A DNA stretch of 54,677 nt, from positions 1 to 54,677 of the forward strand of contig DYFK01000009.1 in NCBI GenBank assembly GCA_020725265.1, given 5' to 3'. This document shows positions 11,385 to 18,503 of this stretch, piece after piece. The translations under genes and the position numbers were made by a program. The notes under the pieces were generated by a model. That model did no database searches, was not told the DNA's origin, and worked only from the letters and a program-made list of their open reading frames with translations. Position 1 is the first letter of the stretch. Each line of letters opens with the position of its first letter. This DNA comes from Hydrogenophilus sp. Its GTDB lineage: Bacteria; Pseudomonadota; Gammaproteobacteria; Burkholderiales; Thiobacillaceae.

Positions 11385-11875
11385 TTTTCTCGCGCAGCAC
11401 GCAATACGCCATCCAGGCCATGGTGGTGCTGGCCGGACATCCCGGCCGCGATTTCGTGATGAGCCGGGTGCTGGCCGCGCGCCTGAACCTGCCGGAATCG
11501 TATCTGAGCAAGCTGATGCTGCGCTTCACCCAGGCCGGGCTGCTCGAATCCACGCGCGGCCGCGCCGGCGGCTACCGGTTGCGTGGCGATCCCCACGCGA
11601 TCACGCTCCGGCAGGTGGCCGACGTGGTCAGCGCCGGGCGCATGAGCCAGGAATGCCTGCTCGGCCTGAAAACCTGCTCGGACGATACCGCCTGCGCCAT
11701 GCATTGCCAGTGGCAGCCGGTGAAGAAGCGGTTGTTCGACCTGCTCGACGAACAGAATCTCGGCCGTCTGGCCGATGGCATCGCCAGTGGCCGCTACCGG
11801 CTGGAGGAGCTCAATGTCCACGGCCTGACGGCGATCGTCCAGTCCGCGCGCGGCCTGGACACCAGCCAGTCATGA
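11381..11875 (+). CDS. Rrf2-family Fe-S transcriptional regulator
   Basis: The 164-residue product has an N-terminal winged helix typical of Rrf2 ([42 protein letters not shown]) and four cysteines at 92, 99, 105 and 109 in the loop where IscR, NsrR and RirA bind an Fe-S cluster. The three-cysteine pattern C-x6-C-x5-C plus C109 suggests sensing of oxygen, NO or iron. It is coupled to draG by ATGA overlap at the end of the nifB operon, so it would be made under nitrogen-fixing conditions. Its end overlaps the convergent ureG end by 6 bases. Targets cannot be read from the sequence. Confidence 0.9.
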
Positions 11876-12496
11876 GCGTGCCGGGGCGAGCATGCCCTGG
11901 CGGACGATGAACTCGACGATGGCGGCGAGGCCCTGGCCGGTCTTCATGTTGCTGAACACGAACGGCCGCTCGCCGCGCATGCGCCGGGCGTCCGCGTCCA
12001 TCACTTCCAGCGAGGCGCCGACCAGCGGCGCCAGGTCGATCTTGTTGATCACCAGCAGATCGGAACGGGTGATGCCGGGGCCGCCCTTGCGCGGGATCTT
12101 CTCGCCGGCCGCGACGTCGATGACGTAGATCGTCAGGTCGGACAGTTCCGGGCTGAAGGTGGCGGCGAGGTTGTCGCCGCCGCTTTCGACGAAGATCAGG
12201 TCGAGGCCGGGAAAGCGCTTGCTCAAGCGGTCGACCGCCTCCAGGTTGATGCTGGCGTCCTCGCGGATGGCGGTGTGCGGACAGCCGCCGGTCTCCACGC
12301 CGAGGATGCGCGCCGCCTCCAGCGCCTGGTTGCGCACCAGGAATTGCGCGTCTTCCTCGGTGTAGATGTCGTTGGTGACCACGGCGATTTCGTAGCGCTC
12401 GCGCAGCGCCAGGCACAGCGCCAGGGTCAGCGCGGTCTTGCCGGAGCCGACCGGGCCGCCGATGCCGACGCGCAGGGGTTGGGAAGCAGGGCTCAT
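11870..12496 (-). CDS. ureG: Urease accessory GTPase UreG
   Basis: The 208-residue SIMIBI-class GTPase drives nickel delivery to apo-urease. The P-loop [14 protein letters not shown] is near residue 12, followed by [34 protein letters not shown] with the conserved CPH nickel-binding motif, [17 protein letters not shown] and the guanine-specific [10 protein letters not shown] start at the ATG at 12496, where it overlaps ureF by ATGA. It is the last gene of the long minus-strand urt-ure run. Confidence 0.96.
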
Positions 12497-13161
12497 GAGC
12501 GGAATATCCGGGTGTACTGGGTTTCGTGCAGGCTGCTGGCGATGGCGAACGCCGGCAGGAAATTGGCGCTGGCCTCGATCGGCGCGGCGACGGCCACGCG
12601 CGCCAGCGCCGGCAGGCGCGCGCCGAGTCGCGCCAGCAGGCGCTGGCCGGCGGTCTGGCCGAGCGGCACCGCCCTGAGCGCGGCTATCACCTGGTTTTCC
12701 AGCCAGGCCCACAGGTAGCCGGCTACCGCGTCCTCGCCGGCGATGCCCCAGGCGGCGGCGGCACGGCTCCAGGCCAGCGGGAAGCTGATTTCATCACGGT
12801 CGAGCGCGGCGTCGGCGGGAAAATCCGCCAGCTCGCGCAGCAAGCGCGCCAGGGAATGGCCCATTTGCAGCGTCTCCGCGCGCAGTTCGGCGGTCTCGCG
12901 GCTGGCGAGAAAGTCCGCGTCGAGCGCCGCCAGCCGCGTCGCGTCGCCGTCGCCCCAGGCGGCCAGCATGTGCGCGAGGTAGACCGCCTCGCAGCGCGTG
13001 ACGCCCCATTCCAGACAGTCGCCGATCCAGCGCGCGGCGCCGGCCTCGTCGCGCACCGCGCCACATTCCACCGCCCATTCCAGACCCTGCGAATAGGTGT
13101 AGGCGCCCACCGGCAGGGTCGGGCTGGCCAGATGCAGCAGGCGGATCAGCGACGGGTTCAT
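12493..13161 (-). CDS. ureF: Urease accessory protein UreF
   Basis: The 222-residue all-helical protein is the UreG-activating component of the urease maturation complex. It starts [20 protein letters not shown], with the [16 protein letters not shown] signature, and keeps TRIF near the C-terminus. I use the ATG at 13161; the upstream frame is open but unlike UreF. It lies 7 bases after ureE and overlaps ureG. Confidence 0.94.
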
Positions 13162-13168
13162 CGGCGTT

Positions 13169-13693
13169 TCATCGGCGGCCGGCGCGCAGCATGTCGTGGA
13201 TGCGCGGCCCGCGCCCCTCGCCGTCCGGACTGTGGCCGTGCGGATGGGCATGACCGCCATGACCGCCGTAGGCGCCGCTTTCCGGCTGGAACGGCGCCTC
13301 GGCCTCGCTCACCCGCAGACCGAGTCCGCGCGCCATCTCGCCGAGCACGTGGTCGCGGCCGAAGCGCAGCAGGCCGCCGGCCGCGTCCATTTCCACCTGC
13401 ACCGGCACGTGGCGGTTGCCGAGATGGTAGGCGGCGCGCGCCAGCAGCAAGGCATCGTCGGTGCGTGCCTCCATCACCGCTTCCGGCGCGGCGGCCACCT
13501 CGACCACCCGGCCATCGTTGCCGAGCAGGCGGTCACCGGCGCGCAGCAGCGTGCCGCGCTCCAGGAACAGACCGACCTCCTCGCCGGAATCCAGACGGGT
13601 GCGCAAACGCGCCTTGCAGCGCAGCTCGAAGGACAGCGTCAGCCGTTCGCTGGCGGCGGCGTCGGCGGGCGCGGGGTGTTCGATCAGCAGCAT
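13169..13693 (-). CDS. ureE: Urease nickel metallochaperone UreE
   Basis: The 174-residue UreE binds and delivers nickel. An N-terminal peptide-binding domain (SFELRCKARLRTRLDSGEEVGLFL is its hallmark, here read as LRTRLDSGEEVGLFLERG) is followed by the metal-binding domain with LGNRHVPVQVE and DHVLGEMARGLG, and a histidine-rich tail (GGHGGHAHPHGHS) that stores nickel. The ATG at 13693 lies 2 bases after the ureC stop. The same frame is open far upstream through ureC antiphase sequence, which is not coding. Confidence 0.94.
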   Translation of the reverse strand: MLLIEHPAPADAAASERLTLSFELRCKARLRTRLDSGEEVGLFLERGTLLRAGDRLLGNDGRVVEVAAAPEAVMEARTDDALLLARAAYHLGNRHVPVQVEMDAAGGLLRFGRDHVLGEMARGLGLRVSEAEAPFQPESGAYGGHGGHAHPHGHSPDGEGRGPRIHDMLRAGRR

Positions 13694-13695
13694 GC

Positions 13696-15392
<1,697 letters not shown>

Positions 15393-15396
<4 letters not shown>

Positions 15397-16886
15397 GGTG
15401 TTACTCCTTGCTGGGTCGCGTCGCGTTCGCGGCGCAGGAAGGCCGCGACTTCCTGGTGGAATTCGGCGGCGAACGGCCAGGCTTCACCGTTGCGCGGCGC
15501 CAGGATCTTGGCGTGGTGGCGGATGTTGAAATCGGCGCAGTCGATCAGGCGCAATTTCAACTCCGGCCAATACGCGCTTTCGATGTCGGTGAAATGGACC
15601 GGTGGGGTTTCCACGCGCGCCAACAGCAGCCGGGCCGGCGTCGGCGTGTCGGCGCAGAGCGCGCGGGCGCGTGGCGCGTCGGCCGGCTCGTTCCAGAGCG
15701 TGTCGAACGCGGCGGCATCGAGATGCAACGCGTGCGCGGCCATGCCCAGACCTTCGGCGCCAAGCCGCGCCAGCGCGTCGTCGATGCGCTGGCTGTATCC
15801 GGCGCGATTTTCCCCGCTCCAGAACGCGCGGTAGGTCGGTACGCCGATGCCGGCATGGGCCAGAACCGGGCGGCGTGGTGCCGTGGTCATGGCGGCGGTC
15901 GGCACTGGCCCGGTCGGCGCCTCCGTCGCCGGGGCAACCGGAGTGAGCACCACCGGCGGCGGACGGGGGGCCGGAACGGAAGCCGGTACCGGTGCCGGCG
16001 GCGTGACGTCGAGCGGCAGGAAATGCGCGGGCTTCGGCACGAAGTAGTACTCGCCGAGCACCTGGTCATACATGGCCGGAAACTGGTTGTGATGGTGCTT
16101 TTTCGCGCGGGCGTGGACAGCCCGGCGTACTTCCTGCATGGCCTGGCGCACGCTGACGCCGGGCTGGTCGAGCCAGGGCAGCAGTTCGCGGGTGAACAGG
16201 CCGTTGGGATCGGGATCGTCGTCGTACAGCTTGTCCAGCGCCTGCTGGTTGGCGCCGGCCGAGAACAGGATCATCTGGCCTTCCGCCGAACCGGCAAGCG
16301 CCAGACCGCGCGTGGCGCCGAGCGCGCGGCCGGCCCGGCGCGGCAATGGATTGTCGCGACAGGCGTCGACGATCAGCAGGGTGAAACGCGGATGCGCGCG
16401 CGCGATCTTGTCCTGAATGCCTTGCAGGCTGATGGCCTGGTCGTCGATGTCCGCCTCGCCGCGCGGACTTTCGATGTCGGCCGGCAACAGGTAGTTCTGG
16501 TTGTTGATCTGCACGCCATGGCCGGCGAAGAACAGCACGCCCTCGCCGCCGCCGGCGATGCGTTCGACGAAATCGTTGACGGCCGTGTTGATCTGGCGGC
16601 GGTTGGCATCGATCAGCAGGGTGGTCTGGAAACCGATGCGTTCCAGCTTGGCGCCGACCGCGCGGGCGTCGTTGCCGGCCTTTTCCAGCTTGTCGATGGT
16701 GCGGTAGTCATCGATGCCGATGACCAGGGCGTGACGCGGGCTGGCATCGTCCACGCGCAGGACGCGGGTGTTCTGCGCGTGGGCCGTGGCCAGCCCGAGC
16801 AGGGCCATCACGCCGATCAGGAAGCCGCGCCAGGCGATGTGGGTGCCCGGAGACCGACGCGCGCCGACAGCCATCATCGCGATCAC
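15393..16886 (-). CDS. Secreted caspase-like (C14/metacaspase) protease inside the urease operon
   Basis: The 497-residue product begins with a signal peptide (hydrophobic [17 protein letters not shown], likely cut after A37) and a caspase-like p20 domain, residues 50-270: [17 protein letters not shown], catalytic H123 in LFFAGHGVQ and C176 in [10 protein letters not shown], then [10 protein letters not shown]. Both catalytic residues are intact. After a proline-rich linker (about 295-345) comes a C-terminal domain I do not recognise (residues 350-490, with [17 protein letters not shown]). It starts at GTG 16886, overlapping the ureB stop (GTGA), or at ATG 16877, and its stop overlaps the ureC ATG. 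So it is co-translated between two urease structural subunits, which should be made in equal amounts. A periplasmic arginine/lysine-specific protease is the family expectation; its substrate and any urease link are unknown. Confidence 0.9.
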
Positions 16887-17188
16887 AGCGCCCCCATGAC
16901 CTCGCCGGCGAAGCCGAAAACCCGGCGATCGCCGGCCAGGGCGACGAGCCGCACGCTGCGCGTCTGGCCCGGCTCGAAGCGCACGGCGGTGCCGGCGGCG
17001 ATGTCGAGACGATAACCGCGCGCCGCCGCGCGGTCGAAGGTCAGCGCCGTGTTGGTCTCGGCGAAGTGGTAGTGCGAGCCGACCTGGATCGGCCGGTCGC
17101 CGGTGTTGGCGACTTCCAGGGTCAGTGTGGCGCGGCCGGCGTTGAGCTCGATGTCGCCGGGCTGGATGGCGTATTCGCCGGGAATCAT
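16883..17188 (-). CDS. ureB: Urease beta subunit UreB
   Basis: The 101-residue structural subunit starts MIPGEYAI, a hallmark of UreB, and carries [18 protein letters not shown] and [16 protein letters not shown], all conserved. It assembles with UreA and UreC into the urease trimer. Its stop overlaps the GTG start of the caspase-like gene instead of ureC. Upstream lies a 112-base gap with a palindrome separating it from ureA. Confidence 0.97.
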
Positions 17189-17300: not shown

Positions 17301-17603
17301 TTAAACGATGGGGTGATGCACGGTGACCAGCTTGGTGCCGTCCGGGAAGGTGGCTTCCACCTGGATTTCCGGAATCATCTCCGGCACGCCGTCCATGACC
17401 TGGTCGCGGCGCAACAGCGTGGTGCCGTGGCTCATCAGCTCGGCGACGGTGCGGCCGTCGCGCGCGCCTTCCAGGATGCCGGCGCTGATATAGGCCACCG
17501 CTTCCGGGTAATTGAGCCTGAGGCCGCGCGCCAGGCGGCGCTCGGCGAGCAGGCCGGCGGTGAAGATCAGCAGCTTGTCTTTCTCGCGCGGCGTCAGTTC
17601 CAT
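17301..17603 (-). CDS. ureA: Urease gamma subunit UreA
   Basis: The 100-residue structural subunit has the family start [17 protein letters not shown] and the motifs [20 protein letters not shown] and the C-terminal KLVTVHHPI. Length is exactly typical. I use the ATG at 17603; an upstream open stretch runs into a repeat. It lies between ureD and ureB. Confidence 0.97.
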
Positions 17604-17624
17604 GGTGCGTTTCCTTTTCCGTTC

Positions 17625-17652
17625 CGTCATTCCCGCCTTCGCGGGAATGACG
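17625..17652. repeat. REP-like inverted repeat (ATTCCCGC type)
   Basis: CGTCATTCCCGC and GCGGGAATGACG form a perfect 12-bp stem with loop CTTC. This is the widespread proteobacterial GTCATTCCCGC repeat, also seen in a longer nested form at 19221-19330. It lies between ureD and ureA. Confidence 0.85.
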
Positions 17653-17657
17653 TTATT

Positions 17658-18503
17658 TCAAGTGTTCCAGATTCTCGGCATCAGCGCCGCGCGCCCGATC
17701 AACGCCGGGCGCAGCACTTGCCACAACGCCGCGAACCAGGCGCGCGCGGCTTCCGCGGCATGGCCCAGGTAGCGGGCCACCAGCAGGCCGGGCAGCAGGG
17801 TCACCGCCTGGCGCGCGCCGGGCTCCCGGCCGGGCACGGCGCGGCAGGCGGCGAGCAGGCCGGCGTCCAGGCCCGGGCCGCTGGCCAGCAGCGTGCCGCA
17901 GACACTGAAGCCGGCCAGGCCGGCCGGCGATTCCAGCAACGGCCCGCCGCCAGCCAGCGCGCCGCGTTCCAGCCAGAGCGGATGGCCGTCGCGCGCGATG
18001 CGGGTTTCCAGGCGGATGTCGCCACTGGCGAAGCGTTCGCCGGCCGCGCGCCGCCCCAGGCACAGCACCTCCCAGCCGAGATAGCGCGCGTCGCCGGCCA
18101 GTTCGACGCGGCCACTCATGGCCGCGCGCGCGCCATCGAAGACGATGCTCTCCTGCGGCAGCCATTCCAGCGCGCCACCGGCCGCCACCGCGCAGGCCAG
18201 CCGCTGCGTCGCCAACGGCCCGGCGCTGCGATACCACTTGCCGGCACCCGGCGTGGTGAGCAGGGCATGCGCGCCGGCGCCGACCGCGATGTCGATGTCC
18301 AGCGCGTCGCCGCCGACGATGCCGGCGGGCGGATGCAGGACGATGGCGTGGCAGACCGCCGCGCCCTCCGGGTACAGCGCCTTCTGCACGCGCAGCGGGC
18401 CGAGGTGTTCGCGGCGGGCGAGGATCGTCGCGGCGTCGCGGCGTTCGAAACCCAGGGCAAGGCGGGCCTGCCAGGCGGCGGTGACGGGTTCGGCGAGATT
18501 CAT
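17658..18503 (-). CDS. ureD: Urease accessory protein UreD (UreH)
   Basis: The 281-residue scaffold protein forms the UreDFG complex that carries nickel into apo-urease. Landmarks are LRVQKALYPEG, HPPAGIVGGDALDID, TTPGAGKWYRS and LEWLPQESIVFDGA, all conserved in UreD. It follows urtE by 7 bases, so transport and enzyme genes are joined in one run. Confidence 0.94.
   Translation of the reverse strand: MNLAEPVTAAWQARLALGFERRDAATILARREHLGPLRVQKALYPEGAAVCHAIVLHPPAGIVGGDALDIDIAVGAGAHALLTTPGAGKWYRSAGPLATQRLACAVAAGGALEWLPQESIVFDGARAAMSGRVELAGDARYLGWEVLCLGRRAAGERFASGDIRLETRIARDGHPLWLERGALAGGGPLLESPAGLAGFSVCGTLLASGPGLDAGLLAACRAVPGREPGARQAVTLLPGLLVARYLGHAAEAARAWFAALWQVLRPALIGRAALMPRIWNT

Follow-up and report, generated by a model that had tools for sequence, protein, structure and literature searches.

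The window, by which we mean the whole 54,677-nucleotide stretch analysed (contig DYFK01000009.1 of the Hydrogenophilus sp. assembly GCA_020725265.1, our genome G000), carries a urease operon in which a gene for a caspase-like peptidase of the C14 family lies between ureB and ureC (Table 1). The original prediction had placed the gene there, and both the reading frames and the Pfam matches of the neighbors confirmed this: the C14 frame shares 4 nt with ureB and another 4 nt with ureC, and the flanking genes that were scanned against Pfam are all urease subunit or accessory genes. The prediction had also held that the coupling to the flanking genes was perfect, which stood for the overlaps as such and for the 3′ end, where an ATGA overlap is clear and the ribosome site of ureC (AAGGAG) lies within the end of the C14 gene. 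It did not stand for the 5′ end; here GTG is one possible start, ATG codons 4 and 5 are equally plausible, and because of these codons, and of a homolog in a related genome (G008) whose ATG start probably lies 71 nt beyond the end of ureB, behind a GGGAGGA-type ribosome site, coupling on this side is not established. From the anatomy of the gene, co-expression with urease is likely. The GC content of the C14 gene (68.7%) falls among the values for the seven other genes of the comparison (64.5–75.5%), while its GC3 (84.5%) is the lowest of the eight (86.4–94.0% in the other seven).

Table 1. Urease genes of the window and features of the C14 gene and its product
Feature	Position	Strand	Basis and remarks
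ureD	17658..18503	-	PF01774 1.3e-57
ureA	17301..17630	-	PF00547 5.5e-47
ureB, urease beta subunit	16883..17188	-	PF00699 (Urease_beta) 1e-45
C14 (orthocaspase-type) gene	15393..16886	-	497 aa from GTG; alternative ATG at codons 4 and 5; Pfam PF00656 3.1e-24
Predicted signal-peptide region, residues 1-36	16779..16886	-	By eye; cleavage after ATA or AHA
Caspase domain, residues ~50-285, with H123 and C176	16032..16739	-	Pfam; model vs MALT1 paracaspase
Catalytic H123 codon	16518..16520	-	Computed from ORF start
Catalytic C176 codon	16359..16361	-	Computed from ORF start
Pro/Ala-rich linker, residues 286-340	15867..16031	-	Low pLDDT at 289-311, 313-335; GC 78.2%
C-terminal domain, residues 341-497, CsgG/GNA1162-like predicted fold (moderate support)	15396..15866	-	Alignment and model
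ureC, urease alpha subunit	13696..15396	-	PF00449 (Urease_alpha) 9.7e-56, PF01979 9.8e-84
ureF	12493..13260	-	Longest frame, true start probably internal; PF01730 8e-42, residues 69-212
ureG	11870..12712	-	Longest frame, true start probably internal; PF02492 1.7e-39, residues 82-252

A Pfam scan of the C14 protein returned Peptidase_C14 only (PF00656, residues 51–274, 86.4 bits against a cut-off of 21.4, E-value 3.1e-24). The predicted catalytic pair was found at the positions originally given, H123 within FAGHG and C176 within VDACRD, and both residues are conserved in all 11 aligned caspase sequences. A full-length structural model (mean pLDDT 78.2) matched the MALT1 paracaspase by Foldseek (8.2e-15; TM-score by target 0.81 to the caspase-domain chain 3v4o_A), and a sequence search of solved structures with the C14 protein led to MALT1 as well (2e-7). 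The N-terminus has hydrophobic residues at 21–35 followed by A-x-A motifs, and the model places a helix at 16–39; by hydropathy only, this is consistent with a signal peptide, and the protease is probably exported.

With its caspase fold, HG...DxC dyad and N-terminal hydrophobic segment the protein shares the features of bacterial orthocaspases, or prokaryotic metacaspases (PF00656), and differs from them in a C-terminal domain with no Pfam match and in the location of its gene between urease subunit genes. In a survey of prokaryotic caspase homologs, predicted operons contained 237 of the 508 metacaspases, and the words "urease" and "periplasm" do not occur in its main text (PMC3501461). Within the one literature library searched there was no relevant report of a caspase gene in a urease operon, the single match concerning a Brucella vaccine. 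The ureB-C14-ureC arrangement is real, recurs in one further genome and is unreported as far as we searched.

The ureB/ureC junction in related genomes

The original prediction had proposed a search for the order ureB-C14-ureC elsewhere, leaving room for its being confined to this genome; it is not, as G008 has the order ureD-ureA-ureB-C14-ureC-ureF-ureG with a full-length C14 homolog (58% identity). In G008 a 27-nt gap takes the place of the overlap between C14 and ureC, so that the gene order is conserved between the two genomes and the tight overlaps are not. An assembly chimera, conceivable in a draft genome of 36 contigs, was ruled out by this second case, the same order being kept at 42% protein divergence, and the GC content of the gene also speaks against it; the probability that some assembly or annotation artefact lies behind the gene is in our estimate vanishingly small. 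The suggestion of a recent insertion was likewise weakened by the divergence of the two copies and by the pattern of substitution between them. A simple Nei-Gojobori count gave a dN of 0.18 and a dS of 0.67 (ratio ~0.27) for the caspase part and 0.46 and 0.90 (ratio ~0.5) for the C-terminal part, with ratios of 0.7–0.8 in the linker and leader, which points to constraint on the protease domain; identities were 72.0% for the caspase domains and 48.7% for the C-terminal domains. As a separate observation, the UreC of G008 (L017:2671-4422) is longer than that of the window (583 and 566 residues, respectively) and contains a Gly/Pro-rich insertion, in frame, near residue 391; longer UreC frames also occur in several relatives.

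Matches to the C14 protein at E-values of 1e-10 or less were present in seven of the 23 genomes of the genus, that of the window included, the match in G003 being confined to the C-terminal part. Among the other six genomes with a match, only G008 has the gene beside urease: ureC was not found in G003, G004, G016 or G018, and the junction is cut in G007, where, as a further observation, the ureC pieces on contig C162 (L027, L028) lie in different frames, an assembly error or decay. The caspase homologs of G016 and G018 are close to that of the window (70.8% and 69.1% identity over the caspase domain) and have a signal-like N-terminus, but they carry an FGE-sulfatase domain at the C-terminus and were not seen beside urease; the G016 gene ends ~100 nt before the end of its contig, leaving its downstream side unseen. 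In identity, the G008 caspase domain stands nearer to its counterparts in G016 (80.5%) and G018 (77.1%) than to the one in the window (72.0%).

Across the family, ureC was found in 27 of 117 genomes and ureB in 24. With the window included, 23 junctions could be read, four others being cut by contig ends (G007, G021, G049 and G094), and these held a short gene that we call mini-UreJ (13), a full HupE_UreJ gene (one, G051), the C14 gene (two, G000 and G008) or nothing (seven); in G009, for instance, ureB overlaps ureC. The mini-UreJ gene (~70 aa) matches the N-terminal third of HupE_UreJ, at 23.5 bits against a cut-off of 23 for the one of the 13 that was Pfam-scanned, the remainder being judged by eye. 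The junction is therefore filled in 16 of 23 readable cases. C14 itself, at two of 23 with seven junctions empty, is not a conserved urease-operon gene in this family.

An order-wide sample of 389 genomes (ureB in 151, ureC in 149) yielded 140 junctions, counted as pairs among the matches listed, with two from G266. Of these, again among the matches listed, 119 had a gap of 91 nt or less and 21 a wider one; an identified gene was present in 14, and seven of the 21 wide gaps (107–381 nt) had no identifiable gene. The statement that ureB and ureC normally adjoin thus holds for most of the order sample and fails for the family. The 14 identified occupants among the matches listed were HupE_UreJ (six, of which four were Pfam-scanned and those of G158 and G341 judged by sequence alone), DUF4440 (three, all with a signal-like leader), LysE (two), GAF (one), mini-UreJ (one, that of G092, which is also in the family count) and C14 (one, that of the window); the LysE-type exporter and GAF-domain genes, at L089, L090 and L091, belong to other families of the order. 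Judged by sequence, 13 of these 14 listed occupants look exported or membrane-bound, the exception being the GAF protein. A filled junction is therefore the exception in the order and the rule in the family, the C14 gene is one of several tenants, and the junction as such is a recurrent slot occupied mostly by exported or membrane proteins.

By eye, we also noted a His-Pro pair directly after the likely cleavage site (A|HP) in several exported proteins of the slot, namely mini-UreJ, UreJ and all three DUF4440 proteins (L048-L066, L080, L081, L084). Exported proteins are described in a recent report as binding Ni or Cu through N-terminal histidines (PMC12537917). The recurrence of A|HP across unrelated families of the slot suggests a shared metal-capture role.

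UreJ genes are placed between ureB and ureC in other Betaproteobacteria also. UreJ/HupE (PF04955) resembles the C14 protein in being an exported or membrane accessory protein encoded at this same junction, but the two are unrelated in sequence, the C14 product being a predicted protease and not a permease. In the literature UreJ is a member of urease clusters (PMC3093359, PMC10117971, PMC6342446) and UreJ/HupE is discussed as a nickel transporter (PMC2667541). The C14 gene might stand in for UreJ as a true urease accessory gene, for example by processing an envelope protein on which nickel uptake depends or by removing envelope proteins that are damaged at high ammonia or pH. It does sit exactly where relatives have UreJ or mini-UreJ; in addition, HupE_UreJ was not found in 22 of the 23 genus genomes, that of the window among them, nor was NicO found in the latter. 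However, the C14 protein has no match to PF04955 and thus no Pfam relation to this metal transporter, and G009 and six other relatives with urease have an empty slot and need neither gene there, so that we consider such a replacement improbable.

The C-terminal domain and the history of the fusion

Residues 342–488 matched no Pfam family at E-values up to 1, and the original prediction had taken the C-terminal domain to be unique. This proved wrong: a profile search found the domain in 17 of 117 family genomes, and by sequence it follows a signal peptide and caspase (two genomes), a TIR domain and transmembrane segment (four, with TIR confirmed by Pfam in G003 only and the frame interrupted in G005) or two transmembrane segments (nine), and is present as fragments in two (G031, G087). 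Searches outside the family gave no further member among 399 genomes of the order, where the two matches were the family's own G000 and G092, or among 378 genomes of the phylum, where the one match was G000 itself; with at most nine and ten candidates scored per genome, respectively, weak members could escape these samples. Nor was there a match at an E-value of 1e-3 in 72,556 plasmid records. In an alignment of 13 sequences, which leaves aside L039, L042, L043 and the fragments, C411 and C450 are invariant and may form a disulfide, and a SAYWPEL-like motif shows little or no variation.

The structure prediction proposed for this region gave an AlphaFold2 model with a pLDDT of 88.9, whose best PDB neighbors by Foldseek were CT253 (1.4e-4) and GNA1162 (2.4e-3), with PqiC and CsgG lower. 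Only one match had an E-value below 0.001, TM-scores were ~0.4, and CinA-type and unrelated proteins were interleaved with the CsgG-like ones; the resemblance of the predicted fold to CsgG/GNA1162-type envelope proteins has, therefore, moderate support. The likeness to CsgG, GNA1162 (DUF799) and PqiC is further met by a caspase paralog in the same genome (L004 of G000), fused to a Pfam CsgG domain (1.2e-12), which is a second case of such a pairing; the domain studied here differs from these envelope proteins in having no Pfam match and, by eye, no lipobox. The TIR architecture with its transmembrane segment would put the domain outside the membrane. The domain cannot be assigned to the periplasm in every architecture, the topology of the form with two transmembrane segments being ambiguous.

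This latter form adjoins an upstream gene for a papain-type protease at three of the five loci examined (G079, where the protease was confirmed by Pfam at 1.9e-5, G104 and G069; not G074 or G082). Separately, a conserved four-gene group was seen at L096:1074-5701 and again at L097 and L098, comprising an exported protein, a small membrane protein, a papain-type protease with a further C-terminal region, and a protein with two transmembrane segments and the C-terminal domain. Consecutive TIR-like frames, one of them with the C-terminal domain, lie at L021:5743-9265 in G003 (three by sequence, of which one was confirmed by Pfam) and at L042 in G005.

Such company raises the idea of an immune or stress-death protease parked in the urease operon, the C-terminal domain being an effector-associated module that also occurs behind TIR and beside papain-type proteases, and the PADLOC "caspase" model does match the C14 protein (4.1e-15). 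We hold a defence or cell-death effector to be very unlikely, since the predicted signal peptide would export the protease, the Pfam-scanned flanking genes are urease genes, and the NCBIfam model for EACC1-associated caspases (NF047832) scored 51.6 bits, below its curated cut-off of 140. Described caspase and TIR conflict systems are cytoplasmic.

A tree of UreABC (24 rows; G073, G094 and G049 left out, G007 and G021 with partial UreC only) placed the urease of the window away from that of G008, the latter grouping with those of G007, G009, G021 and G024. Forcing the ureases of G000 and G008 into one group comes at a cost of 27 log units (AU p = 0.049, which is borderline and applies to a group named after the data were seen), and a single group of the five genus ureases was rejected (p = 0.0066). 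The two C14-bearing ureases thus appear, on borderline support, not to be sisters. The window and G008 have sister C-terminal domains (96/94), and their caspase domains were joined with weak support (53/92), the alternative pairing of the window with G016 not being rejected (p = 0.073). Since the G008 caspase is nearer to those of G016 and G018 than to that of the window, the caspase and the C-terminal domain need not have been inherited as one unit. The history is compatible with C14 having moved laterally from one operon to another, with an ancient presence followed by losses, or with a separate assembly of related parts.

These data bear on whether the C14 gene is a passenger, that is, a protease unrelated to urea in a junction that tolerates insertions, which, having landed in a register harmless to the operon, was kept because its removal damages urease expression. 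The site seems permissive, its occupants coming from the unrelated UreJ, DUF4440, LysE, GAF and C14 families; the close caspase homologs of G016 and G018 were not seen beside urease, 13 further genomes of the family have the C-terminal domain joined to different modules (and two more have fragments of it), and the GC3 of C14 is somewhat below that of the urease genes. Set against this, the preponderance of exported or membrane-bound proteins among the listed occupants of the order does not look random, and the presence of the fusion in two non-sister urease operons suggests an association that was retained or moved as a unit, a point that is itself weakened by the borderline AU test and by the lack of a clear pairing of the caspase domains. 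We regard a passenger as possible, yet on the whole unlikely.

A candidate envelope protease, probably co-expressed with urease

The explanation we prefer, and judge about evenly poised between right and wrong, is that the gene encodes an orthocaspase that is exported, carries an envelope domain and shares the expression of urease by way of an accessory slot that is used repeatedly. The protein would be exported by Sec and consist of a signal peptide, a caspase-fold protease with an intact His-Cys dyad, a flexible Pro/Ala linker and the C-terminal domain, which, with its CsgG/GNA1162-like predicted fold, would act outside the cytoplasm as a module for binding a partner or ligand. Its gene would be one occupant of a ureB/ureC slot that is filled with different genes in the family and more rarely in the order, and from this position it would be expressed along with urease, when nitrogen is limiting or urea is present, through read-through and coupled translation. 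The protease would not be part of the cytoplasmic urease enzyme itself; its likeliest job would be a regulated cleavage of envelope proteins during urea use, and like other orthocaspases it would probably cut behind basic residues.

This preferred explanation draws on the dyad and caspase fold, the signal-like N-terminus, the G008 copy, the occupancy of the slot and the low dN/dS of the caspase part, as well as on the TIR form of the C-terminal domain with its transmembrane segment, the CsgG-like structural neighbors and the caspase-CsgG paralog. We counted against it the moderate Foldseek support, the ambiguous topology of the form with two transmembrane segments, the rarity of C14 in the family junctions, the nearness of the G008 caspase to G016 and G018, the low GC3, and the finding that, of the six other genus genomes with a match, G008 alone shows C14 beside urease. 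The C14 gene may have a role in urea metabolism.

A bolder version, which we offer as speculation and rate a little below even the replacement of UreJ, is that the C-terminal domain is a new, family-restricted envelope sensor plugged into several outputs, namely caspase, TIR and an anchor of two transmembrane segments beside a papain-type protease, and that one sensor-protease of this sort became part of the urease operon in this lineage. If so, envelope proteolysis would start when the cell uses urea and produces ammonia, in a urea-linked bacterial protease pathway that is undescribed as far as we searched.

Bacterial caspase homologs are largely without known function, and a recurrent place in a metabolic operon offers a testable condition for one of them (urea, nitrogen limitation or nickel). 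Accessory genes dock repeatedly at the ureB/ureC junction, which is commonly pictured as two structural genes side by side. The C-terminal domain defines a small family, fused to caspase and TIR and found beside a papain-type protease at some loci. Several more C14-like proteins are encoded on contigs C2, C5 and C11 of G000 (L002-L006).
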